Source: a virus. From it: a stretch of DNA of 64,000 bases. Both the position numbers and the translations under genes were made by a program. The stretch is from positions 28,470-92,469 of IMG/VR virus record IMGVR_UViG_3300033145_002663, one strand, 5' to 3'. Below the pieces are notes generated by a model. That model was not told where the DNA came from and did not search any database. It saw nothing but the letters and a program-made list of their open reading frames with translations. Positions 7,152-64,000 of the stretch are shown piece by piece (position 1 is the stretch's first letter; each line of letters begins with the position of its first letter).

Positions 7152-7406
7152 ATGACAATCGATGATTATTTGAAATCAACAAAGTTAAAAGCCCTTGAAT
7201 TTGCTAAAAGAATCAACCGCCACCCATCCTACGTCTCTAAACTAAAAAAGAAAAAAATTGTTCCTTCGCTTCTGGAAGCTTTAGTTATTTTTAAAGTGTC
7301 CGACGGCCATATCAATATCGAAGATATGGTCCATACAAAACATCTAAAAGCTCACGGCTTACTCAAAAGCGACAGTTCCGCTGTTATTAAATTAATACAG
7401 AATTGA
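7152..7406 (+). CDS. Cro-like / YdaS-type DNA-binding protein
   Basis: An 84-residue protein with a helix-turn-helix near residues 12-34 (LKALEFAKRINRHPSYVSKL), followed by VPSLLEALVIFKVSDG, the pattern of YdaS/Cro-type regulators. It is the first gene of the rightward operon, immediately after the operator pair, and diverges from the CI-like gene. It should compete with the repressor for the operators and favour lytic growth; this is inference from family and position. Confidence 0.75.
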   Translation: MTIDDYLKSTKLKALEFAKRINRHPSYVSKLKKKKIVPSLLEALVIFKVSDGHINIEDMVHTKHLKAHGLLKSDSSAVIKLIQN

Positions 7407-15536: not shown

Positions 15537-15748
15537 TGGCAACGATAATTTTTGAAAACTGGCCCAACACATGCTGGATGGATAAAGAGTGGGTCAAAGA
15601 TAGGCTTGAAACGGAACAAAAGAAAAAGATTATACAGATAGAATCTCTTTTTTCTAAGGCAAGCATGAAAAGAAAAGCTCAAATCATGGGAATTTCTGTT
15701 GGATATTATTATCAATTAAGAAGCAAGTATAAAATTACCACCCCATAG
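15536..15748 (+). CDS. Small HTH-like protein (70 aa)
   Basis: A 70-residue protein. Residues 40-62 (ASMKRKAQIMGISVGYYYQL) look like a helix-turn-helix. Its ATG shares one base with the previous stop (TAATG). It ends 14 bases inside the convergent recombinase gene and closes the rightward early operon; no terminator hairpin is visible between the two. Confidence 0.5.
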   Translation: MATIIFENWPNTCWMDKEWVKDRLETEQKKKIIQIESLFSKASMKRKAQIMGISVGYYYQLRSKYKITTP

Positions 15749-16613
15749 CCGCATCCACCCGGCGCTGAAGCATGTTCGGTGTCGGGTGAATGTAGTTATC
15801 CTCGATTGTTTTCGGTGTGTCCCCCAGCAGGAACGCAATGTCCATGATACTCATACCGCCTTCATAGTGCAGCCATGTGGCCACGTAATGCCTAAAGGTG
15901 TGGGGGCCCCGACCATCGGCACCGTTCTTTAGTCCCAGGTCAATCAGCATGTCATTAATAATCTTCTGGACCTGCTTGGTGGAGGGGAATATTCTATCCT
16001 GCCATCCCATATCCAGCATTGCGCGTTCCTTATATATTAATAATATGCGCGCGGTGTCTTTTGAGAAGAACGCCGGCCGGGGTTCGGTCTTGGAGTCAGA
16101 CAGAAATACGGTTCTGTTCTCAAGATCCACGTCCCTGGACATGATGCGGCTGACCTCCCGGACCCTGGCACCGGTATCGATCAGCAGGCACACGATCGCC
16201 TGGTTCCGGACAGAGTTTCTTGAATCCGGGAACGAGTATTCTCTGCACATCTCGACCTCAATTTCAGTGAACCAGCGGCTCACAGCCTTGAGCTGGGCTT
16301 CCTTGCGCTCGGATGCAGGAATGCGGTAGGTGTATTCTATGGGGGTGCCGTTCCATTTGAAGAACATTTTAGCAATGGTGAGGTATTGCTGGATGGTGGG
16401 TCCACCGCAGTTCAAACTTTCAAGATAGGCCGCATACCCTGGCATGTATTCCTGGAAGTTATTTAAGTCTACGTTATCCATTCCTAACCAATTGCAATAC
16501 CCTTGAAGCCTTTGCAGACCATTTCTGTATAGATTGATTGTGTTCGGCCTCAATGAAGATATTGAGGATAAATATTGAGCTATAACCATGTTTATATCTG
16601 CTTTGTGTGCCAT
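15735..16613 (-). CDS. Second tyrosine recombinase
   Basis: A 292-residue recombinase unlike the integrase at 476. A SAM-like core-binding domain (residues about 5-100) precedes the catalytic domain. Catalytic positions visible are Arg150 (TGARVRE), Lys175 (SDSKTEP), His238 and Arg241 (PHTFRHY) and Tyr274 (DNYIH); the expected His before the Tyr is Asp265 (LLGDTPKT). The length is that of Xer-like or short integron/plasmid recombinases. It is the first-discovered alternative for dimer resolution of a plasmid-like prophage, or DNA inversion; an integrase role cannot be excluded. Its ATG overlaps the stop of the zinc-ribbon gene upstream (TAATG). Confidence 0.85.
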   Translation of the reverse strand: MAHKADINMVIAQYLSSISSLRPNTINLYRNGLQRLQGYCNWLGMDNVDLNNFQEYMPGYAAYLESLNCGGPTIQQYLTIAKMFFKWNGTPIEYTYRIPASERKEAQLKAVSRWFTEIEVEMCREYSFPDSRNSVRNQAIVCLLIDTGARVREVSRIMSRDVDLENRTVFLSDSKTEPRPAFFSKDTARILLIYKERAMLDMGWQDRIFPSTKQVQKIINDMLIDLGLKNGADGRGPHTFRHYVATWLHYEGGMSIMDIAFLLGDTPKTIEDNYIHPTPNMLQRRVDAAMGW

Positions 16614-17404: not shown

Positions 17405-18041
17405 TCCATACCTCCTTTACATGTTTGATGCTCGGATAAAGTTTATGCGATGCTATCATATTGGCAATTTCAGGTTTGAATTTTGGTGGACAGTCCTCTT
17501 TACTCCACTTGTAAAACAAATCAAACTCGTCATTGAACTCTTTTATCTGACGATCCTTTTCCGCTATTTCTTTCTTGAATAATTCGTGCAGTTTTTTAAT
17601 TTCCGGTACTACCTGCCTGACAATCATATCTGAAAGATTAAGTTTTTTTGCTTCGTATTCATGACGGGAGGGCAGGGGCCACGAATAGGACAAGCAGTTT
17701 TTAAATGTAGTATTATTTAAAGTAATTTGTGAGTTGTCGTTGAACGTATATCTCTGCTTTAAAATATCCGCGATTTTATCAAATGCGTATTTACGATCTT
17801 GTTCGCTTAGGTCATAGTTAAATATACGGTTCCCATATTTCATAGTACCGTAACACCTGAAATTAATACCCTCACCAGTCATTTTAAAATCTTCGGATCT
17901 CACAATATTAACTAGTTCAAACTGATAAGGATCATCGCATATTACAACTGTATTAACATTCCCACCACGATGAAGACCTAACTGCTTGTTCAATAAAAGT
18001 TTAATATGGTGTATGTTTCTCAGTACATTTTCAGCTAACAT
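17391..18041 (-). CDS. Hypothetical protein (216 aa)
   Basis: A 216-residue protein. The first 120 residues look alpha/beta; residues about 135-180 are a charged helix (MIVRQVVPEIKKLHELFKKE) that may form a coiled coil. No catalytic motif is visible. It overlaps the next gene by 14 bases and lies in the leftward accessory operon. Function unknown. Confidence 0.6.
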   Translation of the reverse strand: MLAENVLRNIHHIKLLLNKQLGLHRGGNVNTVVICDDPYQFELVNIVRSEDFKMTGEGINFRCYGTMKYGNRIFNYDLSEQDRKYAFDKIADILKQRYTFNDNSQITLNNTTFKNCLSYSWPLPSRHEYEAKKLNLSDMIVRQVVPEIKKLHELFKKEIAEKDRQIKEFNDEFDLFYKWSKEDCPPKFKPEIANMIASHKLYPSIKHVKEVWSENH

Positions 18042-18084
18042 ATTCCCTCTATTTACACGGGTACCACCCGTATCGGTACCGCAT

Positions 18085-18264
18085 TCACCTTTTCATTTCA
18101 AACGTGTTCATCATCAGCGCGTCCGGGTTCCCACCTCTACCGTATACGCACTCCCACTTATCCCTTTCAAAATCCGCCGGGCCTTTTGTTGGATGGCACC
18201 ATTTGGTTTGAGCGCAACCATAAATACATAGAGCCATGATTAAAACTGCGATAACTGTTTTCAT
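18085..18264 (-). CDS. Small lipoprotein (59 aa)
   Basis: A 59-residue protein with a lipoprotein signal: basic start MKTV, hydrophobic core to residue 15, and a lipobox LCIYGCAQ with Cys17. GGAGGATAAAATT precedes the ATG at 18264. The mature part has two more Cys residues. It should be lipidated and anchored in the host envelope. Spanin outer subunits (Rz1) are similar in size, but no inner partner overlaps it, so a superinfection-exclusion or envelope role is equally likely. Confidence 0.7.
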   Translation of the reverse strand: MKTVIAVLIMALCIYGCAQTKWCHPTKGPADFERDKWECVYGRGGNPDALMMNTFEMKR

Positions 18265-18329
18265 AATTTTATCCTCCTTTTTAATTTTAGAGGATAGAAT
18301 TATACCTTCTTTTTGATTATTAATCAAGA

Positions 18330-18923
18330 TTAAAAAGCATAGCGCCCGGAGGGTTTACGGACCTTCCACATCCAGCTGGAATCATAAGCGGAGTTTCGAC
18401 CGAGCTTTAACAGTCCGGCTTTGTTTTTAATGACCAGCCCCTCAATTTCATTATCCTCGATAACGTCAAAGAACACCTTGCGAAAGTTGTCCGGGAACTC
18501 CTCGGGGATCCCCAGGGGATCACTGTTCACTTTGAACAGGTTCTCGATGATGGTTCTTCGGTACCAACGCGGTTTCCCAACCAGAAGTTTTCCCTGCCAC
18601 ACAAACACGTCGTAGATCATAACCTTATGTTTTATGCCCGGCACCTTATTATGGCGGAGGCCTCCGTCAAATAAACAGTACCCGTTAAGCTGAAGACGGC
18701 TTAACGCTTCCATCAGCTCATCGTTCGGGGTGTAGTTTAATTTTTCCTCGTGCCGGTTCCAGAACTCAAAATTGCCGTTGCAGTGCAGCTCTAAACGCTG
18801 CTCATTATATTTTCGTTCGGCAACGAAAGAGTTGTGATCAGAAAGCCTTTGAAACAGGGGTTGCTCTATGCTGAGCAGGCGGGGTTTCTCCGGGTAGAAA
18901 TATTTAAAAGCGGTGAGTTTCAT
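18330..18923 (-). CDS. Minimal ATP-dependent DNA ligase (adenylation domain)
   Basis: A 197-residue protein with nucleotidyltransferase motifs of ATP-dependent ligases: Lys38 in ERKYNEQR (motif I, usually KxDGxR), LFDGG at 84-88 (motif III), EGLVIK at 161-166 (motif IV) and WMWKVRK at 184-190 (motif V). No OB-fold domain follows, so it is far shorter than typical phage ligases. The substitution of the Asp-Gly by Asn-Glu in motif I is unusual. It may be a minimal DNA ligase needing a partner, or an RNA ligase. The ATG at 18923 overlaps the upstream TGA (ATGA), with AAGGAGG before it. Confidence 0.75.
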   Translation of the reverse strand: MKLTAFKYFYPEKPRLLSIEQPLFQRLSDHNSFVAERKYNEQRLELHCNGNFEFWNRHEEKLNYTPNDELMEALSRLQLNGYCLFDGGLRHNKVPGIKHKVMIYDVFVWQGKLLVGKPRWYRRTIIENLFKVNSDPLGIPEEFPDNFRKVFFDVIEDNEIEGLVIKNKAGLLKLGRNSAYDSSWMWKVRKPSGRYAF

Positions 18924-29211: not shown

Positions 29212-29976
29212 TTAAATTGGTATTGGATTAACCTTCATGGTCTCTAAATTTACAAAGACACCATGATATTCGATTCGGGTTTCTCGAATTAGTTTCCAGA
29301 GTATGTCCATGCCGAGCATAGCCAGCGTGGAATTGATAAACAGATCCTGCCTGCCTAAAGCCTCGGCAAGGCTGCATGACGGCCCCTGATCTTCCTCGGT
29401 TGCCCGTTCAAACTCGTCATAGAACAATTCCAGCACGTGAGGGAGCTTTTGGGATTGACCATCGGGTTGCTTTATTTCGTCCCATGAGCCAAGCACGGCC
29501 TGACCGGTCTTCTGGGTGTTGCCAAAATCCATCCAGTACATTCCTTCGTTATACTCCTGCCCCCCTCGAACATCCTCGTCCCAAAGTTCCGCCAATGCGA
29601 TGCGTGCTTCAACAGTATCGACACAGGATATAATTATATTGGTGGGATCAATAACTTCGACGGTATCCCTGCAGTACGGGATGGCATTAGCTTCCCATGC
29701 CAGTCCGAAGAACCGGTTTACCCTTGTAATCAGAGCGACGGCTTTGTTCTGCTCGATTTCGGCGGGTGAGAACAATTGTCGCCCGAAGTTGGACTCGCTC
29801 ACGATGTCCGGATCGTATGCCTGAACATAGAACCCAGGGTGCCCCAGGCCCTGCAGGGCGAAGTCCATGCGGGCCAGGCAGGTTAGCACCTGCGATCCGG
29901 TACCGCCGCACCCTACCAGCGCGACGGTGATCGGGTGTGTGGGGTCTAATAAGTATTTGTCAGCGTAGTGAGTCAT
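29212..29976 (-). CDS. PRTRC system ThiF-family (E1-like) adenylyltransferase
   Basis: A 254-residue E1-like enzyme: nucleotide loop GCGGTGS (22-28), the DPDIVSESNFGRQLF block (55-69) with the conserved Asn-x-x-Arg-Gln, Asp120 in SCVDT, and a Cys201 in PSCSLAEAL at the site of the conserved C-terminal Cys of MoeB/ThiF proteins. The Zn-binding Cys pairs of MoeB are absent. The family adenylates the C-terminus of a ubiquitin-like partner; the best partner here is protein C at 32762. It overlaps protein B by four bases. This is a diagnostic member of the ParB-related, ThiF-related cassette. Confidence 0.87.
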   Translation of the reverse strand: MTHYADKYLLDPTHPITVALVGCGGTGSQVLTCLARMDFALQGLGHPGFYVQAYDPDIVSESNFGRQLFSPAEIEQNKAVALITRVNRFFGLAWEANAIPYCRDTVEVIDPTNIIISCVDTVEARIALAELWDEDVRGGQEYNEGMYWMDFGNTQKTGQAVLGSWDEIKQPDGQSQKLPHVLELFYDEFERATEEDQGPSCSLAEALGRQDLFINSTLAMLGMDILWKLIRETRIEYHGVFVNLETMKVNPIPI

Positions 29977-30656
29977 AATAAATCCCCCAGTACCTTTGCT
30001 TTTTTCTTGGAAACCATATGTTTTTTCATGGTTGTTTTAAGGGGGAACCGGCCTCCTTTAGTTATAAGTTTCGTCCAAATAGCATTCAGGTTCTTTCTTC
30101 CCTTGCAGGGATTGGCTACAAAATGAGAAAATTTGGAGTTGAAGAAAGCCGATTCCCAGCCACGGATAATCTGATCAATGGTTTTTCCTTGTATTCTTTT
30201 AGCACTCCCCATACACATATTCCCGTCCTCGTACCTGTTGTGAAACGGGGCATAGTACAGCTCGGTTTCGAGGGTAGGGCGGTCTTTGCCGACGTAGGCA
30301 AACACGGACAGGGTGCTTCCCGTAACCATAAAGATCAAACCGGGGCACCATGCCAGGCCGTCAGGAATGTTCAAGGCGTCCGAAAAATATAGCTGGCGAA
30401 TCATCGGCGGGTAATACCAGAGGGTTTTATGAACATCATGTGTTAATAAATTTACAGGGAACAACCCGGATTTATCCGGCTGATTTTTTTGCTGAAACAG
30501 GGTGATCAAACCTTTCAGGTTTTTCCATGTCAGAGGCTTCCCGCCCAGCAGGGTGCCGTCCCGTGTAATATCATGCAGTTCCGCATAGTAATCTGTATTG
30601 GTGTCCGCCTGATATATCATCAGGGATTTTCTTAGGTGAAAGTTAGAGTAATCCAT
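29973..30656 (-). CDS. PRTRC system protein B (E2-like signature)
   Basis: A 227-residue protein that matches PRTRC protein B. Near residues 135-150 it has APFHNRYEDGNMCMGSA. The arrangement H-N-x-Y-x-x-G-x-x-C-[LM] parallels the active-site segment of E2 conjugating enzymes (HPN-x-Y-x-x-G-x-[VI]-C-L), so Cys148 would be the thioester residue. That comparison is mine, from the sequence. The ATG at 30656 overlaps the stop of the upstream gene (TGATG). Direct coupling to the ThiF gene supports an E1-E2 pair. Confidence 0.82.
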   Translation of the reverse strand: MDYSNFHLRKSLMIYQADTNTDYYAELHDITRDGTLLGGKPLTWKNLKGLITLFQQKNQPDKSGLFPVNLLTHDVHKTLWYYPPMIRQLYFSDALNIPDGLAWCPGLIFMVTGSTLSVFAYVGKDRPTLETELYYAPFHNRYEDGNMCMGSAKRIQGKTIDQIIRGWESAFFNSKFSHFVANPCKGRKNLNAIWTKLITKGGRFPLKTTMKKHMVSKKKAKVLGDLL

Positions 30657-31588
30657 CAAGCCTCCATTAATTTTTGAGAAACACCTGTCCCCATTTCAAA
30701 AAATTTCATAAGGTTATAAGGCCATTGAGGAACTTTCAGCCTGTTAATTTCCAGGCAATCCTTGCCGGTTAAGTAAAAGTTGTGCACAAACGGAATCATG
30801 CCGACACTATTGCAATATTCTTCAGAATCTCTTAAAACTTCCTCGCCCATATAATCATCCAATGACCATACGAATCGCATATAATTATATGGGTTCGCCC
30901 CATCAATGCCTCGTTCAAATTCATAGTCGAGAAAATCATTATAGTCCAAACCGCTTCTGATTAATTCATACCCCTTAAAGCACCAGCTAAAAATCTCTAC
31001 TTCAAGATCGTTTTCAGGGTTGAATTGAGCGAGCATTTGCGCAAAATCATCTATGGAAAAATTCAGCCGATTAATACAATTTTCATAGAAACCGGGTTCA
31101 CCTTTCATGTATTTATGAATCATGTCTGAATAATACGAAATTAAACCTTCATCCGGATCGTCCTCATATTTTTCTTCCCCGATGCGCTCATCAAAATAAT
31201 CAAGCATACGCTCATCCATATCCATGTGCGGCATATTGCAATGCTTGTTTAACAAGCTCATCATGGATAGAATTAAATTATAAATCTTACGATTTTGATT
31301 CTTTAGTTTTGGCAGGTATTCCAGGGAGAGCATATAAATATCATACTCACAGACATTAGAGTATTTATGGTAAACTCGAATCAAATAGTTTGGTGACTCG
31401 ATTATTTCCCATTGAAAATCATTCGGGATGAGTCCGTGCAGTTTTTCAAGGATCGTGCCCAGCACTTTCCAGGTTGGTGTGTTTTTATCTAAGTCCGGTA
31501 TGGAAATTTCATAGTTTTTTAAGATGTTTCGTATTTCCCTTATGGCTTGAAGTTGTTTTCTTTCTGAATCAAACATTCCGTAGTGCAA
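30656..31588 (-). CDS. Large PRTRC-associated protein (possibly protein F)
   Basis: A 306-310-residue helical, acidic protein, coupled to protein B. The start is uncertain: TTG at 31588 with GGAGG 11 bases upstream, or ATG at 31576 without a site. The longer frame to 31879 is rejected because a different small gene occupies that space. The middle (residues 140-230) is rich in Asp/Glu and aromatic residues (DYFDERIGEEKYEDDPDEG). PRTRC cassettes often carry a large protein here, but I cannot confirm the family. Confidence 0.6.
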   Translation of the reverse strand: MHYGMFDSERKQLQAIREIRNILKNYEISIPDLDKNTPTWKVLGTILEKLHGLIPNDFQWEIIESPNYLIRVYHKYSNVCEYDIYMLSLEYLPKLKNQNRKIYNLILSMMSLLNKHCNMPHMDMDERMLDYFDERIGEEKYEDDPDEGLISYYSDMIHKYMKGEPGFYENCINRLNFSIDDFAQMLAQFNPENDLEVEIFSWCFKGYELIRSGLDYNDFLDYEFERGIDGANPYNYMRFVWSLDDYMGEEVLRDSEEYCNSVGMIPFVHNFYLTGKDCLEINRLKVPQWPYNLMKFFEMGTGVSQKLMEA

Positions 31589-31614
31589 TTTCGCACACAC
31601 CTCCAGCTCGTGCT

Positions 31615-31791
31615 TTACGGCAGGCACACCATGCAGGGCGGGGCAGGTAATCGCTCGGGCCGCTCTATGCCGGTCCGGTATGCCCTGTCGGAGTCCACCA
31701 GCAGGCGCCCGACACCGTTGTGCAGCATTTTGAGCTGTTTCTCCTTTTTTTTCCTGCATTTTTTCACCTTCAAATATTCTTCGAGTGTCAT
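31615..31791 (-). CDS. Small basic protein (58 aa)
   Basis: A 58-residue protein beginning MTLEEYLKVKKC, with a Lys-rich N-terminus and a CMVCLP end. Its ATG overlaps the stop of the zinc-finger gene upstream (ATGA), the usual coupling in this operon. It is read in another frame from the longer open frame that crosses here. Function unknown. Confidence 0.5.
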   Translation of the reverse strand: MTLEEYLKVKKCRKKKEKQLKMLHNGVGRLLVDSDRAYRTGIERPERLPAPPCMVCLP

Positions 31792-32084
31792 TGTCTGCTA
31801 CTCCAATCGGCATACTCATCAACGTCATCGTTCTGTTTGGTTTTAAAGCAGTACTCCGATAAAAAATGGAGGCCTTCACCCACCGGGCGACCGCACCCGC
31901 AGGAGCAGAGCTTTATTTTCTTGGGATCCTTTTTTTCGTCCTTGTGCGCTCTGTAATAATCCCTGCATCTTTTACGGTGCATATCTTTGTTGCACTCCGG
32001 ACAATATTTTCGACGGGCAGCAAAGTGGTTTGCCACCTTAAATATCTTGCCGCACTTGGGGTTTTGGCATATTACGGTGAGCAT
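31788..32084 (-). CDS. Zinc-finger protein (98 aa)
   Basis: A 98-residue basic protein with CQNPKCGKIF near residues 6-15, YCPECNKDMH near 28-37, and a LCSCGCGRP block near 60-68 followed by a YC; the Cys spacing fits two zinc ribbons. The ATG at 32084 has CAGGAGTTATC upstream. Nucleic-acid binding is likely. Confidence 0.6.
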   Translation of the reverse strand: MLTVICQNPKCGKIFKVANHFAARRKYCPECNKDMHRKRCRDYYRAHKDEKKDPKKIKLCSCGCGRPVGEGLHFLSEYCFKTKQNDDVDEYADWSSRQ

Positions 32085-32263
32085 GATAACTCCTGGCACT
32101 CATATTTCTTGAGCATTTTTATGGCGTTCCGGTAATTTTTAAACCTTAAGAAGTGACGCAGTTTTTTTAGCTGAGCCTGGGGAAAGCCAAAATAGCAATA
32201 CTGACGCGATTCCCAGGCCACCTCCAGCTCGCCGTATGAGTTGTAATTAATGATTTCTATCAT
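32072..32263 (-). CDS. Hypothetical protein (63 aa)
   Basis: A 63-residue basic protein with a beta-hairpin start (ELEVAWESRQYCYFGFP) and a basic helix (LKKLRHFLRFKNYRNAIKML), a pattern reminiscent of small KTSC-like or DNA-binding proteins. It overlaps both neighbours. Function unknown. Confidence 0.5.
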   Translation of the reverse strand: MIEIINYNSYGELEVAWESRQYCYFGFPQAQLKKLRHFLRFKNYRNAIKMLKKYECQELSCSP

Positions 32264-32405
32264 CTTTCACCACCTCATGAATTTTCCATGCGATATCCAT
32301 GAATTCAGCAAGGCGTTCACCCTGCTGATCCATGGATAAAAATTTAAAGGGCGGTATGTCTTTGATTTGATTATAGAGCTTTTGCTCCATCTCTTGCCGG
32401 GTCAT
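32247..32405 (-). CDS. Small helical protein (52 aa)
   Basis: A 52-residue charged helical protein (MTRQEMEQKLYNQIKD...). The ATG is very close to its GGAG, so an ATG five codons later is an alternative start. It overlaps the genes on both sides. Support is continuity with the operon only. Confidence 0.4.
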   Translation of the reverse strand: MTRQEMEQKLYNQIKDIPPFKFLSMDQQGERLAEFMDIAWKIHEVVKDDRNH

Positions 32406-32577
32406 TCTCCTTTATTACCTCCTTAATAATATTAGCTAATGCTACTATAGCAGCACCCTGATTCCCAAAGTATTCAGCTACAGTTTTTCCATTGAAGGGT
32501 TGACCATCAAAGTGCTTTGCATCATTTGATGTATTAGTAATTATTAAATCTAAAACCCTAATCTTCCTCTCGTTCAT
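32371..32577 (-). CDS. Hypothetical protein (68 aa)
   Basis: A 68-residue protein with a strand (RVLDLIITNTSND) and a helical C-terminus. Its ATG overlaps the previous stop by four bases (ATGA). No family is recognised; it is part of the PRTRC operon by position. Confidence 0.5.
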   Translation of the reverse strand: MNERKIRVLDLIITNTSNDAKHFDGQPFNGKTVAEYFGNQGAAIVALANIIKEVIKENDPARDGAKAL

Positions 32578-32759
32578 TCAGTCACACCTCCTCCATACCA
32601 GGCATGGACCGTGCCGGTTTCTTCGTCCACCAGAAGATCCAATGCCACGAAATTAAAGTGGCGAAACATTGCCAGTGCTTCGCCACTTAAACCTAATTTT
32701 TCGCCCATATCTTCCATGTACTCCCGATCCAGTTCAGCTTGAACGGATACTTTTCTCAT
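32574..32759 (-). CDS. Hypothetical protein (61 aa)
   Basis: A 61-residue acidic protein with a helical N-terminal half and a strand pair near the end (FVALDLLVDEETGTVHAWY). It starts two bases after PRTRC protein C ends. Function unknown. Confidence 0.5.
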   Translation of the reverse strand: MRKVSVQAELDREYMEDMGEKLGLSGEALAMFRHFNFVALDLLVDEETGTVHAWYGGGVTE

Positions 32760-32761
32760 AC

Positions 32762-32971
32762 CTATCCTTTCATCCCCACGGATGTGGAAAACTTGTACTC
32801 GGCTACACCGTCCTTGATTTCCGGGCCGGTAACCGTGGCAGTGGTTAGTTCGGGGTAGGTGTTGCTGTAAAACTGCAACACGTCGTGCGGGGACATCTCA
32901 GGGGCGGGATCGGTGAGCGGTTCGCCCTTATGAAGAAACACCCGTTTTATATTCGTTACGTCTAATGCCAT
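32762..32971 (-). CDS. PRTRC system protein C (candidate ubiquitin-like modifier)
   Basis: A 69-residue protein recognised as PRTRC protein C: IKRVFLHKGEPLTDPAPEMS at residues 8-27, an FYSNTYPELTTATVTGPEI core, and a C-terminal SVGMKG. The predicted order of strands and a central helix with a glycine end is what a small beta-grasp modifier would show, so it is a candidate substrate for the ThiF enzyme. That is inference. The ATG at 32971 is preferred over a GTG at 32980 for its spacing from GGGGG. Confidence 0.85.
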   Translation of the reverse strand: MALDVTNIKRVFLHKGEPLTDPAPEMSPHDVLQFYSNTYPELTTATVTGPEIKDGVAEYKFSTSVGMKG

Positions 32972-32986
32972 TTGAGCCACCCCCTT

Positions 32987-33364
32987 TTATGTAAACAAAC
33001 CTGGTTGTTGACTGACAGCACCAGGTGTCTTAACCGGCGCGGCCTTCTTTTTCACGGTCTTGTCGGTCTTTTTCACCACGGCTCGCTTTTGTTTCTCGAC
33101 CAGATCGTTATACTCGTCTATGGAACTCATTAAACCATGGGTCGATCGGCCGGCTCTTGTCAGTTCATTAATGAACCCCTCGTCCAGTTCTTTGGGAGTT
33201 CCGGATATAACCAGCGGTTTAACCTCAATCTTATCCGCTTTCTCATCCGTCTGTTTGGGCAGCACGCTCACGGCGATTTTCCCATGAACAGGCTTGCTGA
33301 TAACCATTGTTATTGTTAACTTACCCGATTCTATGACCGGGTAAATTCGTTCAAAAAACTCCAT
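32987..33364 (-). CDS. PRTRC system protein E
   Basis: A 125-residue protein matching PRTRC protein E: an FERIYPVIESGKLTITMVIS start (strand-rich), a KPLVISGTPKELDEGFI block near residues 48-64 and a Lys-rich tail ending PGLFT. The tail resembles a clamp-binding (QxxLF) peptide, QQPGLFT, and a sliding clamp gene lies just upstream; that link is speculative. AAAGGAGGAAACGC precedes the ATG. It is the first gene after the promoter at 33399-33426. Confidence 0.78.
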   Translation of the reverse strand: MEFFERIYPVIESGKLTITMVISKPVHGKIAVSVLPKQTDEKADKIEVKPLVISGTPKELDEGFINELTRAGRSTHGLMSSIDEYNDLVEKQKRAVVKKTDKTVKKKAAPVKTPGAVSQQPGLFT

Positions 33365-37000: not shown

Positions 37001-37942
37001 TTATACCACGGCTTCTTTTTTCTGAACTCGAAATTCATTGAGGGTTTCGAGTAAATTGCTTGCGATTTTCGCCATCTCTTTTGCCGTTCTTTCAATCTCC
37101 GGCAATTTCTGCTTGTTGCAGAGGATGAGCATTTTCGACTCGCCATTGGTAAATGGCGACTGTGAAAATTTCTCCATCTGATTCTTGATCTGACCAAATA
37201 ACACCTTTGCAGCCTTGCGAGTTTTCTCGTCTGCTCCGTCTTTAATCTCCGCCCACAAACTCATCTGGTTATACTCGGCTAAATAGGCATCAACTTTTTT
37301 CAACATCACATCAGCGGTTCTGCCGTTTTTCGCCCATGAATAAGCCTTCTCGAATTGACTCGGCTTAAGAGAAGCGATTTTCCTTGCCACAGGTTTCGGC
37401 AGTCGGCCTTGATCCCACTCTCTTTTCATGAGTGTCGGCAGTTGCAGAATAGGGAGATCCGCCTCGATCATAGCTACGGATTTTCCAAAAGCCTTCGCAA
37501 CTTTTTCCATCGGAAGCTCATGCTCATTCAAAGCTCTGTCAATGGCTTCCAAGGTTTCCAGCGGATCCATGTTTTTCCTGACCAGGTTATCCATGATTTG
37601 ATTCAGAAAAACATCGGCCTGAGTCATGGGTTTTTCGTAGACCCTCGCCAAGATGTAAGTTTTTCCATCTTCGATCTTGAAACCATGACGGGGTTGACCA
37701 TCCCAAAATTCCTTAATAAACATTGAAACAGCAGTCAGCCGACATTCTCCATTCATCAGCATTTGCCATCCCGGAGTCTTGGGGTGCGGAAAAACATCAA
37801 TAGCGTTTTTCATGCCTTCATTCGCTATGGAAACCGCAAGTTCGCCCTTGATGTAAGACTGGGGCTTGTTTTTTCTTGGCTGATTTGGGTCAGCCTCGAT
37901 GTAATCGACATTGACATATTCATACTTGTAATCTTCTTGCAT
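37001..37942 (-). CDS. parB-like: ParB/Spo0J-family protein
   Basis: A 313-residue protein. The N-terminal ParB/Srx domain includes YIEADPNQPRKN (about 14-25) and a NGECRLTA box (about 68-75), the GExRxxA motif that binds CTP in ParB proteins. A helix-turn-helix domain follows (ELPMEKVAKAFGKSVAMIEA, about 155-175), then a helical C-terminus. It is a plausible PRTRC ParB or a partition CTPase for a plasmid-like prophage. No ParA ATPase gene is visible in the window. GGGAGGG precedes the ATG; the terminator at 36930-36966 closes the unit. Confidence 0.82.
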   Translation of the reverse strand: MQEDYKYEYVNVDYIEADPNQPRKNKPQSYIKGELAVSIANEGMKNAIDVFPHPKTPGWQMLMNGECRLTAVSMFIKEFWDGQPRHGFKIEDGKTYILARVYEKPMTQADVFLNQIMDNLVRKNMDPLETLEAIDRALNEHELPMEKVAKAFGKSVAMIEADLPILQLPTLMKREWDQGRLPKPVARKIASLKPSQFEKAYSWAKNGRTADVMLKKVDAYLAEYNQMSLWAEIKDGADEKTRKAAKVLFGQIKNQMEKFSQSPFTNGESKMLILCNKQKLPEIERTAKEMAKIASNLLETLNEFRVQKKEAVV

Positions 37943-38028: not shown

Positions 38029-38060
38029 AAAGAAACGCCGGGCTGGTTAAGCCCGGCGTG
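38029..38060 (-). terminator. Strong terminator closing a leftward non-coding transcript
   Basis: On the minus strand ACGCCGGGCT (38051-38060) pairs fully with AGCCCGGCGT (38036-38045), loop of five, followed by TTTCTTTT. Nothing coding lies upstream of it for about 800 bases, so it most likely ends the structured RNA described next. Confidence 0.75.
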
Positions 38061-38862
38061 GGAAAGCACAAATTTAAGGTTGAAAATTTTCCAAGCCGCT
38101 GAATATTTTCCATGAGATTTTATCCCGCAAATCCGTATAGCTAACAATCCCTGCCACATGGATTTAAAAAACCCATTGCCTAATTGAAAGCAAGATAAGC
38201 AGTTCCACCTCACTTCCAAAATTCAGCCCGGATGTTACCATCCAGTATGTGGCCGGAGAAAATATCCAACCGCCCAATATTAACCCACTATGAGCACGGA
38301 CTGACCTTTTAGCGTGTTTCAGCTCACGGAGGATCTTTCATCCACAGTCATTGGCCAGACATAGACCGCATTTCTAACCGTTAGCGTGGTAGGCACACGG
38401 AGGGACTTTGCCCCACAGTCAGCCCGCTGTTTGTGAGGGGATCAGAGGACTACCACCCCACCAATCAAAAATACCAGGATAACCGATTGGCAAATTATCC
38501 ATCCTGCAATCTGTGCGCATAGAAGGCGCACCGCTCGATCCGTATTTCAGGCTCCCTTGCGACCATGATGTTACAGGACGGCATATCGGTCGCATTGGTA
38601 TATCCAAGTGTTAGCGTCATGGCAGTTGGGCTTTATTCAGCCCGCAGCTCCGCAATACAGCATCCCGGCTCCGTGGCTTAATAATCAAGCTCACAAAATA
38701 TGCCGATCACACGTTACGGCAATCAAGCCATAGTTGATGAAGGGCATCCTATACACAGCGAGCCTCAAGCCGTGTGTAGGATCTTAGCCAATGAGTTTTA
38801 TGGGCGACAAGCTGACTGGCAGGTTAGGCCGCCAGGATGAGGCCGGTTGCTCTATGGCCGTT
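38061..38862 (-). ncRNA. Candidate large structured non-coding RNA (GOLLD/ROOL-like class)
   Basis: About 800 bases without a credible gene on either strand, of higher GC content than the flanks and ending in a strong terminator. On the minus strand there are many hairpins: ATCCTA...TAGGAT with CACA/TGTG (38746-38782), GTGCGC/GCGCAC (near 38514-38533), GGATAA/TTATCC (near 38475-38504), and GGGCT/AGCCC (near 38630-38645). A 41-base module occurs twice (38309-38350 and 38381-38421) with conserved CTCCGTG...CACGCTAA pairing and differing but still pairable inner stems. Phages carry giant ornate RNAs of this size; I cannot match the class by eye. Confidence 0.5.
38309..38421 (-). repeat. Duplicated 41-nt structural module inside the candidate RNA
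   Basis: Copies at 38309-38350 and 38381-38421 (72 bases apart) share TTAGCGTG and CACGGAGG ends (plus-strand sense) and a CCACAGTCA tail. Inner stems differ: GGAT-GAAAG-ATCC in one, GGGG-CAAAG-TCCC in the other, which is what base-pair covariation looks like. The flanking CGTG/CACG pairing is kept. Confidence 0.6.
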
Positions 38863-38874
38863 CAAGTTGTTCGG

Positions 38875-38915
38875 GTGTCCAGAAAGTGAACACCACTGTC
38901 CAGAAAGTGAACACC
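38875..38915. repeat. Two tandem 20-bp dyads (left of the sigma-like gene)
   Basis: GTGTCCAGAAAGTGAACACC at 38875-38894 and CTGTCCAGAAAGTGAACACC at 38896-38915, a 21-bp period. Each is an imperfect dyad with TGTYCA/TGAACA arms. Related dyads lie at 41154-41327 on the other side of the sigma-like gene. Confidence 0.75.
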
Positions 38916-38917
38916 AC

Positions 38918-39146
38918 TGTCTCAAGTTAAAATGATACATTTATGTCCCGAATAATCTGATACAGTTTTGTATCGGTGAGACATGTCTCAAGTTATACAC
39001 ACTTGTGTCTCAAATTATTGAGGCAGAAGTGTATCAGCATAATGAGACAGGTGTCTCGGATTAGATGAAACAATAGTGTCTCAATTAAAATGAGACGGTT
39101 TGAAATAAATCATCTTTAAAATAGTGTCTTAAAAATTAATGAGACA
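38918..39146. repeat. Array of nine palindromes TGTCTCA-N7-TGAGACA
   Basis: Nine diverged dyads of about 15-22 bp: 38918-38940, 38944-38964, 38969-38983, 38984-39001, 39006-39025, 39030-39049, 39052-39072, 39077-39097 and 39125-39146. Best copies are TGTCTCAAATTATTGAGGCA and TGTATCAGCATAATGAGACA; arm changes are often in only one half. The spacing is about one unit per 25 bp. This is a protein-binding array, for example a centromere-like site, an origin, or an operator cluster. Confidence 0.75.
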
Positions 39147-39437
39147 CTATTTTAGAAAAAATTTATTAAATAATCGGTTTTGCCTGAAAATTTTTCAGGG
39201 TTTCAATGTTAACAAGTTTTTTTGTTCTGAAAACTTTTGACTTTGATTTACGAATAACGGTTACTTTTTTACGGTTCATAAAACACCTATTTTTTAAAGG
39301 TTAAATATCTTTTCAAATATATAGACGTTTCAAATTCAAAAAAATTACAAAAAAGATTTATACTGATATTTAATTAATTATCAATAGGTTATAATGATTT
39401 ATTAATAAACTGATAAAAATAAATAGAAAAATAATGT
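39147..39437. other. AT-rich non-coding spacer
   Basis: About 290 bases of strongly AT-rich DNA with no gene. A small inverted repeat (GCCTGAAAATTTTTCAGG near 39181) is present. Its role is unclear; it may be the upstream regulatory part of the sigma-like gene. Confidence 0.4.
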
Positions 39438-39465
39438 TTGACAAGATTAATCATACATATAGAAT
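39438..39465 (+). promoter_or_regulatory. Promoter of the sigma-like gene
   Basis: TTGACA (39438-39443), 16-base spacer, TAGAAT (39460-39465), then a 40-base leader with GAAAGGAAGGTGTAACC before the ATG at 39508. No 14-bp operator is seen, so it may be active in the lysogen. Confidence 0.65.
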
Positions 39466-39491
39466 GTATATCAATATCAACCATTAAATAG

Positions 39492-39630
39492 AAAGGAAGG
39501 TGTAACCATGCAATTAGTTATTAAGGAAGCATACAACCCAGAAAGTAAAGAGTATGAACCAAAAGTTTTTGACAAGAGGGATTTATACAACCCAGAACCA
39601 AAAACAGAAAAGGAAGGTGTAACCATGCAA
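39492..39630 (+). repeat. Duplicated 22-base ribosome site and start codon
   Basis: The 22-base block AAAGGAAGGTGTAACCATGC plus AA occurs at 39492-39513 and again at 39609-39630, a 117-base offset (39 codons), so both ATGs are in the same frame. The stretch between encodes a YNPE...YNPE internal repeat. It points to a tandem duplication and two possible translation starts. Confidence 0.8.
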
Positions 39631-40845
39631 ACAAAACAACTATTAAGGCTGTATTCACAAAAAATGAGTCAGTTCCAAAAATTGAGATTGCAGGATACAA
39701 AAGGCATAAGTCAAAAACAGATAATCATGCAAGATATTTTGAATGAAAGTATGATTAAATTACTTGCATTATCTGAAAAGGAAACCATTAAAAATGTTGA
39801 ACATCTTTTTAATAAGACGTTACGCAATACCACTATTGATAAAATGAGATCGTTTGAAACGTCTGAAAACATCATTGAATTTTTTGACTCATACAATGAT
39901 ATTGAAAAGAGTACGGATTTCACGCAATACAATAATTACAAAGGACTATTAAAACACGTTTTGAAAAAACTTAAAAAGAAAGTCAATAAAAAACTTTTTG
40001 TCCTGTATCATGTCAAAGGTATGAGTCAAAAAGAAATTGCTTTAAAATTATATCCAAATTTAACAGAAAATAATGCAAGGGTTAAAACTAACAGAACCAT
40101 AAAAGCATTGAATCAAAAATTATACCGAATGAAGTTAAAAAATCTTTACAGAACTGAATTTGCTACACCTTGCACGACACAGGATAAAAAACTTCCAAAA
40201 TACAAAGATCATACACCCAGTAACGCAGTAAAAATAAAACGTGAATACGGACCTTTTAAAGGGCAAGTGGCATACCTTTACAAGTCTGATCTGCTTGACA
40301 AGGAAACTTTTGACAAGGAAACCTTTGATAATAACTTAAAACTTGCTAATAATAGAGGATATTTGGCAACTAAAACAAGTCAAGGTTATACAAGTGATAA
40401 CCATATAACATACGATTTCACAAAGTACGCTGGGATTGCAGTTAAAAATAACTTTTATATAAATCATTCTTTTACAAGTACGCCTTTTGGAGTGAAGGCC
40501 ATACCTTTAGTTAATAGCATAAGCACTTATAAAAAGTGGGTAACAGATAACCTTTATGAAAAGAGTATGATATTTAAAAAACAAGACGTTACTGTCAAGG
40601 GTTATGATCGAATAGGTTGTTTGTACTCGAATAATCAGGCAAGTATTGACAAGTTTTATAATCAGGTTACACCTAAAAGGATTGTAATTAAAACAATTAA
40701 CAAGGGTTATCTGCTTTATAGCCATAAGATTTCAAAGGATATAACCCTGACTCATAACAAAACAAAAGAACATTACACGGTAACCATACCAAATAGTCAA
40801 AGGGTTGTTGAATCAACTAACTTTAAATTGAGATATGCGGAATAG
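39508..40845 (+). CDS. Sigma-70/ECF-like protein on an AT-rich cassette
   Basis: A 445-residue protein, much richer in A+T and Lys/Asn than its neighbours, suggesting a separate origin. Residues about 40-120 resemble sigma region 2 (KQLLRLYSQKMSQF..., then FNKTLRNTTIDKMR) and residues about 150-195 region 4 (LFVLYHVKGMSQKEIALKLY, then VKTNRTIKALNQKL), the helix-turn-helix that reads -35 DNA. The last 250 residues are unassigned. A 22-base block with the ribosome site and start is repeated at 39609-39630, in frame, giving a second start at 39625 (406 residues). It could redirect host RNA polymerase; alternatively it is a sigma-like DNA-binding protein of a mobile element. Confidence 0.55.
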   Translation: MQLVIKEAYNPESKEYEPKVFDKRDLYNPEPKTEKEGVTMQTKQLLRLYSQKMSQFQKLRLQDTKGISQKQIIMQDILNESMIKLLALSEKETIKNVEHLFNKTLRNTTIDKMRSFETSENIIEFFDSYNDIEKSTDFTQYNNYKGLLKHVLKKLKKKVNKKLFVLYHVKGMSQKEIALKLYPNLTENNARVKTNRTIKALNQKLYRMKLKNLYRTEFATPCTTQDKKLPKYKDHTPSNAVKIKREYGPFKGQVAYLYKSDLLDKETFDKETFDNNLKLANNRGYLATKTSQGYTSDNHITYDFTKYAGIAVKNNFYINHSFTSTPFGVKAIPLVNSISTYKKWVTDNLYEKSMIFKKQDVTVKGYDRIGCLYSNNQASIDKFYNQVTPKRIVIKTINKGYLLYSHKISKDITLTHNKTKEHYTVTIPNSQRVVESTNFKLRYAE

Positions 40846-40903: not shown

Positions 40904-40998
40904 TCTGCTCTGCTCTGCTCTGCTCTGCTCTGCTCTGCTGCTCTGCTCTGCTGCTCTGCTCTGCTGCTCTGCTCTGCTCTGCTCTGCTCTGCTGCTCT
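40904..40998 (+). repeat. TCTGC/CTG microsatellite
   Basis: About 95 bases made of the pentamer TCTGC (CTCTG) interrupted five times by an extra CTG triplet. It directly follows the terminator. It should be prone to replication slippage. The Ser/Ala/Leu/Cys-repeat frames that cross it are an artefact of the repeat. Confidence 0.9.
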
Positions 40999-47457: not shown

Positions 47458-49089
47458 ATGAATTCCGACGCCAATATGTCCTTTGAAGAAATCCAGAACA
47501 AAATTCAGGAAATCCCGGACGAAGTTTTTTTGCACCTGCAGGCAACCATGCCGTGGCAGCCGGGAATATTGCACGATGCTAAAACAACCGATGCTGATGG
47601 TTGTCCGATTGGCAGCGCGGATTTTAAAGACGACGATTCGGGTAGCCGTGAGTTTCTGCAAACCGAGTGCTGGCGGATGTTCAATAAAAATCCGCAGGTT
47701 TCAACTTCTGTGCGGGGTGCCGCCGGCCGGATTACCGGGCTGGGATTTGAGCCCACCTCAGAAATTTGGGCTATTCAGCAGGTTTTGGAAGACATCGAGT
47801 ACGATCCGAGAAACCGGCTGTATCATTATTGGCCCAAGTATGTTGTCCGCGCGATTATCGAAGGAGAATTATTCTTAATTCTAACCTGTCATACTGACGG
47901 GTTTATCGAGGTGGATTTTTTAGACCCGTCCCAATTAGACACCAAGGGCGACGAGAATTCCGGCATAATCTTTCATCCCACCAAGAAATTGTTCCCCTTG
48001 TTTTACTGTATCCGATCCAAGGATTCCACCGGCCAGGAATACACCCAGCAAATTCCGAGCATTAATATTGCCCGATACCCGAACCTGGTTAACGCATTGA
48101 ATGGTAACCGGTGGTTTAATTCGGTTGAGACTAAAGCGTCCCGTCATAGCGATCAAAAATTTAAAAAAACTGGTGGCTACAATCGGTTTATCGTGTCATG
48201 GGACCGTGGTTTTTTAACCCGGCGCGCCGTGAGTTATTTACGAACCGTGCTTGAATGGCTGAATCATTACGAGACGTTAAAAAAGTACGAGATCGACCAT
48301 AAGAAATCATGCGGCGCCTACGCGTGGACGTTCACCTTTGAGGATGTGAAAGCATTTAAACTATGGGTTTCGCTGTCCGAGGAAGAGCGCAAGAAGACCG
48401 CACTGATGCAGCCGATTATTCCCGGGAGTAAATTGTTTGTTCCGCCCGGGATGAAGCTGGAAGCTAAAAGTCCGCAGCTGCCAAAGATTAGCGGTCAGGA
48501 CACGGATATCATGGAAATGGCAATATCCGGTTTAAACGAGTCCGCCGATGTTACTACCGGTACCGTAAAGGGCACATATGCCAGTGTGAAGGCTACCCGC
48601 GGACCGATGAGTGACCGGACATCCGATGAAATCGCGGATTTTGACCGGTTTTACCGGCACGATTTCTGGGGGTCCGTATTTTTTTTAAAGTCCGCCCTGA
48701 CCGATTTTAAGGCATATTTTGAAGTTGAGGAAGCGACTTCCTTTGATAACGGCAAGGAAAAATTTGAGAAGGTCAAGCGCAAGCCCCAGTTTTTGGTGGA
48801 TGTGCAGTACCCGATTTCAAACACCATTGATCTTGAAAGTATAATTAAAGCCTTGTTTGGAGTTAAGCACGGGCCGCTCACTGAAACCGTAGGTATTCCG
48901 CCGAGCAAGGCCGCAGAGATGGCCGGTATTGGTGGGTATGGCCGGAATCGGCTAAAGAAAGCCACGGAGGATAAAAAATACCCGAAATTAATTTACGCGG
49001 ACGGCATGGACCCGGAATCCAAGCAGGAGAAAACCGAGGGCGAACTGACCAAAAAGAAGAAGGAGGCTCAAAATGCTCAAAAAGATTAG
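47458..49089 (+). CDS. Portal protein
   Basis: A 543-residue protein placed after the terminase, with the lambda B / HK97-type portal pattern: an N-terminal acidic region, VSTSVRGAAGRITGLGF (about 79-95), then strands, a YKA-like ASVKATRGPM loop with the ADFDRFYRHDFW helix, and a Lys-rich C-terminus. It should form the dodecameric ring at the capsid vertex that connects to the terminase and tail. A weak GCAGGGG site lies before the ATG. The Lys-rich tail is probably internal to the capsid. Confidence 0.82.
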   Translation: MNSDANMSFEEIQNKIQEIPDEVFLHLQATMPWQPGILHDAKTTDADGCPIGSADFKDDDSGSREFLQTECWRMFNKNPQVSTSVRGAAGRITGLGFEPTSEIWAIQQVLEDIEYDPRNRLYHYWPKYVVRAIIEGELFLILTCHTDGFIEVDFLDPSQLDTKGDENSGIIFHPTKKLFPLFYCIRSKDSTGQEYTQQIPSINIARYPNLVNALNGNRWFNSVETKASRHSDQKFKKTGGYNRFIVSWDRGFLTRRAVSYLRTVLEWLNHYETLKKYEIDHKKSCGAYAWTFTFEDVKAFKLWVSLSEEERKKTALMQPIIPGSKLFVPPGMKLEAKSPQLPKISGQDTDIMEMAISGLNESADVTTGTVKGTYASVKATRGPMSDRTSDEIADFDRFYRHDFWGSVFFLKSALTDFKAYFEVEEATSFDNGKEKFEKVKRKPQFLVDVQYPISNTIDLESIIKALFGVKHGPLTETVGIPPSKAAEMAGIGGYGRNRLKKATEDKKYPKLIYADGMDPESKQEKTEGELTKKKKEAQNAQKD

Positions 49090-62228: not shown

Positions 62229-62288
62229 CTTGAGAACCTTTTTGTTAAGGATAGAGCGTTCTTAACATAATCACATAGGTGAAAATAA

Positions 62289-64000
62289 ATGAAGAAAGTT
62301 TTATTCGTAGGGCTGAATCCCTTTGCGACGGCGGGTAACTCCGCTATGATGTCCGCAATTTTAGATCAACTGGACAAGACCCGTTATTCCGCGTCATGCT
62401 TTGCGTCAGATCCCCCAACGGTTGAATGGTCCGCACTGCTTTATAATCCTTTGCCGTATTCTATTATTCCCGCTTTCGACGGAGCGCAACCCCAGAGTCA
62501 TTCCAGATTATACCAGGTCATTATGCACGGGTGTCACGACGCCGTTGTGTTTGTGGGCATGGATATTTGGGAGTACATAGACGTGCTTCAAAAGTTGGCG
62601 GAGACTCGCAATAAGCCGTTTAAAATTGCCGCGATATTCCCGTATGACCTTCAGATGGTTCGTGAAGACTGGGTTGACTGGAGCAATAAATTATTAGATT
62701 TCCCCTGCGTGTATTCTCAGTACGGGCATGACATGCTTAAAGATTCCGTACCCGCAATTCGATACTTTCGGCCACCTCTTAAAAGCTCTGATGTCTGGCA
62801 ACCGGCAGACGAAAAAACTCGTCTTAAAATTCGCAGGAAACTATACCCGACGCTTAAACCTGACGATTTGGTGATGGGATGCGTTGCGGCCAATCAGAAA
62901 AGGAAAGATCTGCAGGGACTCATTAAAGCGTTTTCAATCGCTCATAAAGAATGTCCCAACTTGCACTTATTTTTACAAACCAATTTTAACAGTGAATACA
63001 ACCTGGTTCAAGCGGTGAAAGACTACGGCCTGCTTCCGACATCTATTTTGAAAAAGCCGGATAATCATAAATATATGTTTGAATCAATGCCCAAGCTTTA
63101 TAACTCTTTTGATTTTCTTGTTAATTGCAGCCTGCAGGAAGGGCTTTCGTGGACGCCGTTAGAGGCCATGCTGTGCGGTGTTCCGGTGATTGCGTCCGAC
63201 TCGACGGCTCACAAGGAACTTATCGGGGATGCCGGACTTTTAGTTCCATGTAACCAAGACACCTTGCTGAAAACCGTAACCGAAAGCGGGCCGGCCTATG
63301 TTGACGCAAAAAAATGCGACCCGAAAGATACTGCGGAAGCGATTGTCTCCATGGCTCATGATGGTGAATTGAGACAGGCTTGCGCGGAATGGTGCCTGGA
63401 AAAAGCACGTGACTGGCTGGATGGAGTCAGTAACATTAACGATCTTGTTCGGGACATGCTGAAGCCGTCAAGGCCAATTACTGTCAGAGCTGCTGAAAAT
63501 GCGGTTCTTTTTGCGCAGTACTCGTCTGCCGGCGATGTATTGATGACCACCCGATGTTTTAAAGGGATTAAGGAACGGTATGGCTTGCCCCTGCATTATA
63601 TGACGTCCGAGCAGTATATGGATATCGTTACGAACAATCCTTATATCGACAAGGTTATTCCATGGGAAAACAGTGCCGGGAAGGATTATCGGTTTGTTGT
63701 CAATCCCCATGGCGAGAGAATTGCGCCGGGGCATTGGGGGAGGAACTCGAATTCCATACTGTCCGATTTTTACTGGAAGATTTTGGATGTTGAACCGGAT
63801 GATTTCTTTATTGAGCTGAAGCAGCCGGATCGGATTAAAGAGCAGGACGGTGCTCTCACTTTTTTTGAAGAGGATTTCGGTCTTCTCCGTCCATTCGTGA
63901 GATCTCCAGGTCCCTTTTGTATTTTGCATACCACCGGCGGGGATCCTCGTTTTAGAACCTATAAATTCATGAAGGATGTTCATGAAGGCTTGAGGGATAG
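62289..64000 (+). CDS. Two-domain glycosyltransferase (GT-B, family 4/1-like plus GT9-like), partial
   Basis: An open frame with no stop in 570 codons at the window end. The ATG at 62289 follows AGGTGAAAATAA. Residues about 190-340 have a Rossmann-type glycosyltransferase domain: VMGCVAANQKRKDLQGLIKAF, then SLQEGLSWTPLEAMLCGVPV and a DAGLLVP block, the donor-binding signature of GT-B family 1/4 enzymes. Residues about 400-570 read VLFAQYSSAGDVLMTTRCFK and YIDKVIPW, the pattern of GT9 heptosyltransferases, as a second domain. It is placed in the late operon and may modify host lipopolysaccharide, capsid or DNA. The end is outside the window. Confidence 0.75.
   Translation, partial: MKKVLFVGLNPFATAGNSAMMSAILDQLDKTRYSASCFASDPPTVEWSALLYNPLPYSIIPAFDGAQPQSHSRLYQVIMHGCHDAVVFVGMDIWEYIDVLQKLAETRNKPFKIAAIFPYDLQMVREDWVDWSNKLLDFPCVYSQYGHDMLKDSVPAIRYFRPPLKSSDVWQPADEKTRLKIRRKLYPTLKPDDLVMGCVAANQKRKDLQGLIKAFSIAHKECPNLHLFLQTNFNSEYNLVQAVKDYGLLPTSILKKPDNHKYMFESMPKLYNSFDFLVNCSLQEGLSWTPLEAMLCGVPVIASDSTAHKELIGDAGLLVPCNQDTLLKTVTESGPAYVDAKKCDPKDTAEAIVSMAHDGELRQACAEWCLEKARDWLDGVSNINDLVRDMLKPSRPITVRAAENAVLFAQYSSAGDVLMTTRCFKGIKERYGLPLHYMTSEQYMDIVTNNPYIDKVIPWENSAGKDYRFVVNPHGERIAPGHWGRNSNSILSDFYWKILDVEPDDFFIELKQPDRIKEQDGALTFFEEDFGLLRPFVRSPGPFCILHTTGGDPRFRTYKFMKDVHEGLRD

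Follow-up and report, generated by a model that had tools for sequence, protein, structure and literature searches.

About 840 nt beside the ParB-like gene of a tailed bacterial virus probably encode a stand-alone giant structured noncoding RNA, akin in kind to GOLLD and ROOL, at what is likely the origin or partition locus of the genome. At the level of sequence, the stretch is noncoding, folds with a strand bias, carries a terminator before ParB and keeps its position beside ParB in eight records, with homology and covariation within two clusters of these. The original prediction of a candidate giant structured RNA between ParB and a palindrome array is supported, homologs and compensatory changes having been found in relatives.

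The locus and its predicted features

The window, that is, the whole stretch of DNA analysed here, comprises 64,000 nt and corresponds to positions 28470-92469 of the 92,469-base IMG/VR record IMGVR_UViG_3300033145_002663; coordinates are those of the window unless a relative is named. Its genes include those for a terminase, an S49 head protease, a major capsid protein, a helicase, a primase/polymerase and an integrase. The presence of terminase, S49 head protease, capsid and replication genes therefore identifies a tailed bacterial virus. The RNA stretch (38029-38870) is flanked on one side by the ParB-like gene and on the other by a palindromic AT-rich region, which is followed by a sigma-factor-like gene. 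The features are as follows, L095 and G055 being two of the related records described below.

37001-37942, minus strand: ParB-like protein of 313 aa; its gene shares the strand of the RNA and lies downstream of it (HTH_ParB 33.8 bits against a cut-off of 22.6; PHROG ParB-like, 5.9e-11)
38030-38870, minus strand: putative giant structured RNA of ~840 nt (fold z, homology to L095, no ORF)
38035-38059, minus strand: intrinsic terminator closing the RNA at its 3' end (10-bp stem with 8 G-C pairs, T-rich tail)
38086-38271, minus strand: 3' domain closed by a long-range helix between GGUUGGAUAUUUUC (from 38271) and a GGAAAAU copy (38092-38086), from separate fold predictions in the window, L095 and G055
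38228-38245, minus strand: 7-bp hairpin with a GNRA loop that is conserved in both L095 and G055 (21/21 cells paired; both-sided changes at 2 pairs in G055)
38309-38350, minus strand: duplicated module, copy 2 (score reached by 0/300 shuffles)
38380-38421, minus strand: duplicated module, copy 1 (local alignment score against shuffles; inner hairpin without a counterpart in L095 in the alignment)
38876-39167, no strand assigned: repeat and palindrome array with TGTCTCAA-type palindromes and one 21-bp tandem repeat (repeat/palindrome search)
39170-39470, no strand assigned: very AT-rich stretch, GC 0.21 (base composition)
39438-39465, plus strand: sigma-70-type promoter of the sigma-like gene, 11/12 matches (promoter scan)
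39508-40845, plus strand: sigma-factor-like gene, divergent from the RNA (PHROG sigma factor 3e-4; NCBIfam SigZ 1e-7, below its cut-off; 30.5% identity to the same-place L095 gene)

The stretch had been described as some 800 bases without a plausible gene, and this holds: the longest ORFs across it (71 and 62 aa, both with TTG starts) are short and chance-like, and stop codons occur throughout all six frames. A decayed gene was considered and rejected, since stops interrupt every frame and gap lengths are not multiples of 3 (2/19 gaps in the alignment of the window and L095 RNAs are divisible by 3); a tRNA array was likewise rejected, since the 64-kb window contains no tRNA gene. The balanced GC that had been set against AT-rich flanks calls for a small correction. 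GC is 0.49 in the RNA and, as claimed, low across the 600 bases on the 5' side (0.33, then 0.21), but it is 0.47 on the ParB side, so that the AT-rich flank is found on one side only.

Many paired stems, an internally duplicated module with covarying inner stems and a strong minus-strand terminator had also been foreseen, and each was recovered. The minus strand folds to -304.1 kcal/mol (z -3.81; 0/20 shuffles reach this), whereas the plus strand has a z of -1.89, reached by 1/20 shuffles; a repeat with 28 shuffles gave -3.68 and -1.68, respectively. The duplication of the 42-nt module has a local score of 33, compared with a mean of 19 and a maximum of 29 among 300 shuffles, and on direct reading its inner hairpin, GGGGCAAAGUCCC in one copy and GGAUGAAAGAUCC in the other, shows a both-sided change in 2/4 stem pairs. 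A pattern scan for the module gave no match, and a later pattern scan returned 15 stretches, of which 3 were RNAs already in the present set and the other 12 were judged chance matches in coding sequence. The terminator was flagged solely in the window among the four loci put through the promoter and terminator scan. Whereas the 3' end of the RNA is marked in this way, its 5' end was placed solely from the repeat array and homology.

The GNRA hairpin has a base-pair probability of 1.0 in the window's own fold, 0.09 in L095 and 0.0 in G055, and the unconstrained folds of the latter two pair this segment otherwise. Its double changes are reached by 55/500 shuffles, because just three sequences are compared. 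For the long-range helix, the probability at the GGAAAAU centre is 0.81 in the window, 0.99 in L095 and 1.0 in G055, with one double change between the window and L095; the GGAAAAU repeat lies ~60 nt from the RNA 3' end and its partner is a mid-RNA segment. As a DNA motif, GGAAAAT is over-represented relative to base composition in ParB phages (window, G010, G056-G058 and G060, the G060 count being inflated by overlapping pieces), with 20 copies against 3.0 expected in G057. It is also in excess in G025, a relative without ParB (49 against 20.4).

Counterparts in related viruses

Relatives were searched for with the capsid protein (35 loci), the terminase (57 loci) and ParB alignments (47 and 9 loci). 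Seven further records carry the same ParB: L095/G056, G010, L153/G057, L155/G058, L113/G059, L217/G060 and G055. The window ParB alone, searched against the 35 capsid relatives, matched only G010, and a ParB profile applied to 25 records, of which six had been included because they were already known to bear ParB, returned the same six and one weak match (E=1.4e-4) in a 1653-aa frame, which was left uncounted. An ORF-poor stretch of 0.8-1.1 kb lies upstream of ParB, on its strand, in 8/8 records (the window and the seven others); in the relatives its limits were judged by eye, with terminators, arrays and homology as guides, and in G055 its position depends on reading the record as circular, which was done because the record ends overlap.

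On the ParB-sense strand, the eight stretches fold with z values of -3.7, -4.6, -5.8, -4.3, -4.7, -2.0, -3.7 and -4.9, the L217 RNA (z -2.0) folding weakly better than its shuffles. The antisense strand also beats shuffles in several members (L153 -3.7, L113 -3.8), as would be expected if the inverted repeats were selected as DNA, in a centromere, an origin or a packaging site, and no functional RNA were made. Such a DNA-level element is very improbable: the RNA strand folds better than its opposite in 8/8 records, the terminator sits on the RNA strand, and the GNRA loop and G-U pairs are kept on that strand. Structured noncoding stretches are also found in relatives without ParB, in unrelated gaps of G025 (z -3.7) and G031 (z -6.4), and G030 shows weak folding at its skew minimum. 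Since the G025 and G031 gaps fold strongly, folding alone does not single out the ParB-linked RNAs. In G031 (L065), positions 17646-18507 are gene-free and fold strongly on both strands (z -5.4, -6.4), and ParB was not found there.

A homologous conserved region is present in L095, whose RNA is 62.6% identical to that of the window over 430 nt (E=1e-20), and G055 is linked to this cluster by blastn (E=0.006) and by a profile of the window and L095 (E=0.0044). A second cluster is formed by L153, L113 and L217 (L153-L113 E=8e-31, L113-L217 E=1e-25, remaining pair E=3e-22), which L155 joins through a profile of these three (E=8e-6). No opposite-strand homology was found at E 0.2. The two clusters are not joined by sequence, R1, the model of the core of the second, giving no match to the window RNA, and the G010 RNA matches no other and is linked through position, strand and folding only; that all eight form one family is therefore argued from position. 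A search with R1 through the ParB-less relatives yielded no further member among 85 loci (1.43 Mb). A GGGAGCC...UGAAAUAC box at 38540-38556 of the window is seemingly shared with L153, L113 and L217, and thus between the two clusters, on direct reading and was significant in no search.

Covariation, which had been left to comparison with relatives, appears as compensatory changes in conserved helices, from few sequences and with one whole-alignment test that is not strand-specific. In the R1 core (L153, L113, L217 and L155; 160 positions, 22 pairs), 98.7% of 79 cells are paired, 5/22 pairs show double changes, and 0/500 shuffles reach the covariation score. Consensus folding of whole alignments is moderate (z -2.2 to -2.7 against column shuffles), the antisense being about equal in 2/3 alignments. 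Agreement of structure pairs is far above that of slid controls, which also lose sequence identity. A GCNNN-UGARAU-NNNGY hairpin covaries in the same core (A12 columns 64-79), and the folds of these sequences also predict long-range pairing for its 5' arm; a two-state switch and a prediction artefact are both possible.

The sigma-like gene is homologous among the window, L095, L153, L113, L217 and L155 and, from the coordinates, is divergent from the RNA in five of these; in L155 the two share a strand. Pfam sigma domains exceed their cut-offs in the L113 and L153 genes, and the gene adjoining the RNA in G010 and G055 is not recognisably sigma. On the ParB side, the RNA runs on the parB strand and in the window ends ~90 nt upstream of the gene with the terminator in between, an arrangement that would suit a structured and very long parB 5' leader whose terminator is an attenuator and whose RNA senses a signal. 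This is improbable, as the RNA lies ~0.8 to 1.8 kb from ParB in L155, L217 and G055, with small ORFs in between, and its size is well beyond that of usual leaders. The leader and the DNA-level element both fit less well than an RNA-based origin, which is considered below.

Comparison with known giant RNAs

No Rfam model, including those of GOLLD, ROOL and OLE, matched the window or the seven homolog loci at gathering thresholds; the RNA is therefore not GOLLD, ROOL or OLE as catalogued. In E-value mode (E<=5), the window, L052 and L155 stretches gave no GOLLD match and otherwise matches at chance level only, for instance one to Hrs12 on the terminator (24.9 bits against a gathering score of 70). 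Among known phages neither the window RNA nor the L155 RNA had a DNA match and the window ParB matched no protein, and the L153 RNA had no match among known plasmids. Several weak matches were taken as chance: one of 25.8 bits to R1 among 297 genomes from a single phylum, which reads as coding DNA; those in two MAG genomes (E ~0.01); and 13 short ones (E 0.008-0.9) in a DNA search of 35 relatives. The RNA is not described in the open-licence literature on giant phage RNAs and on noncoding RNA with parB, a prior description elsewhere being possible. The window RNA and its counterparts probably form a new family among giant viral RNAs.

The likeness to GOLLD and ROOL that had been suggested thus stands as one of kind, that of a giant structured phage RNA, and fails as one of membership, given the lack of an Rfam match and of a tRNA gene. 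GOLLD often lies near tRNA islands and forms a homo-oligomeric nanocage, its level rising during lysis; both GOLLD and ROOL form cages. The window RNA differs from GOLLD in adjoining parB, the array and the sigma-like gene, in a window with 0 tRNA genes, and from ROOL in its size (~840 nt against 659 nt for the studied ROOL) and in having no tRNA island. According to PMC12286853, GOLLD is phage-encoded, longer than 800 nt and better conserved in its 3' part than in its variable 5' part, and ROOL is a large structured RNA of phages and prophages, the function of both being unknown. The window RNA is also phage-encoded and spans ~840 nt between array and terminator, with a 3' domain that appears better conserved and a 5' part that appears variable; it resembles ROOL in being large, phage-borne and, by predicted folding, structured. 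A further parallel is the abundant ~800-nt noncoding RNA that phage ICP1, which has no tRNA genes, carries in a 1-kb ORF-less space (PMC7567579). Size, ORF-less setting and absence of tRNA genes agree, whereas the ICP1 RNA lies near the lysis cluster and the window RNA near parB.

A possible role at the origin and partition locus

The cumulative GC skew of the window reaches its minimum at 38771, inside the RNA stretch. The minimum lies at 48286 in G010 and, for G056, at 54207 within the 19.8-kb part analysed. In all three cases it is at the RNA 5' end or no more than 0.3 kb from it; in G057, of which a 19-kb part was analysed, the distance is 2.2 kb. Because it coincides with a switch in gene direction, the minimum is suggestive of an origin and no proof of one. 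The adjacent array (38876-39167) may represent an operator, parS or origin iterons. Beside the L095 RNA an array is also present (7240-7390), with an unrelated repeat unit of TATCCAAGATATC type, so that what is retained is the presence of an array and not its sequence.

The strongest rival to a stand-alone giant RNA is an RNA-based origin: the RNA would belong to the replication origin of an extrachromosomal prophage, and its transcript would prime or initiate replication beside the partition locus, as in RepA-less mycobacteriophages. A precedent is provided by the mycobacteriophages Alma, LadyBird and RedRock, in which, according to PMC7157519, a noncoding RNA region near parABS is necessary and sufficient for replication, the origin producing a noncoding transcript beside the partition locus; the deleted regions measure ~400-500 bp, parA is present and transcription runs away from it. 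The adjacency of RNA and ParB in eight records, the palindromic AT-rich array beside the RNA 5' end and the position of the skew minima in the window, G010 and G056 all agree with such an origin. On the other hand, the phage encodes its own helicases, primase/polymerase and two integrases (476-1834 and 15735-16481), whereas the mycobacteriophage setting is integrase-free. In addition, ParA (PF13614) was found in 0/8 ParB records, so that ParB here stands without the parA of the parABS precedent, and the window RNA runs towards parB where the precedent runs away from parA. The skew minimum, besides marking the gene-direction switch, falls in the largest gaps of the ParB-less G030 and G025 too. 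An RNA-based origin is accordingly a possible but rather doubtful reading.

As a stand-alone RNA, the favoured reading, it would be transcribed leftward from the palindromic array. Its transcription is probably under phage control, perhaps with a role for the sigma-like protein, since the sigma-like gene adjoins the RNA in most relatives and no good sigma-70 promoter was found for the RNA itself. The transcript would end before ParB; its fold would comprise a 5' part that varies and a 3' domain that is better conserved and that the long-range helix closes. The RNA would probably be abundant and may self-assemble like GOLLD and ROOL. While the virus infects a cell or is maintained as a prophage, it could serve in trans as a structural scaffold, at the presumed origin or partition site of the genome. 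A bolder version, which we regard as unlikely, makes the giant ornate RNA a working part of the phage origin/partition locus. It would be transcribed at the replication origin with a phage sigma factor, assemble on the spot and help to initiate replication, or to hold and segregate genomes with the orphan ParB. The positional ties of this set of RNAs to ParB, the palindromic array, the sigma-like gene and the GC-skew minimum yield a concrete replication/partition hypothesis. The eight records form a comparative set for it, and if it is true, the job of giant phage RNAs becomes experimentally testable.

Other parts of the window yielded minor observations. The ORF-poor 1.8-kb record end (62229-64000) shows no unusual folding, and a TCTGC pentanucleotide is tandemly repeated in ~19 copies at 40904-40998. 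A cassette of PRTRC genes occupies 29212-33364 on the minus strand, with a ThiF-like E1 (266 bits, cut-off 145), PRTRC E (63, cut-off 38) and PRTRC B (121 bits, just under its cut-off of 131), and is adjoined by a DUF2201 gene and an ATPase gene.
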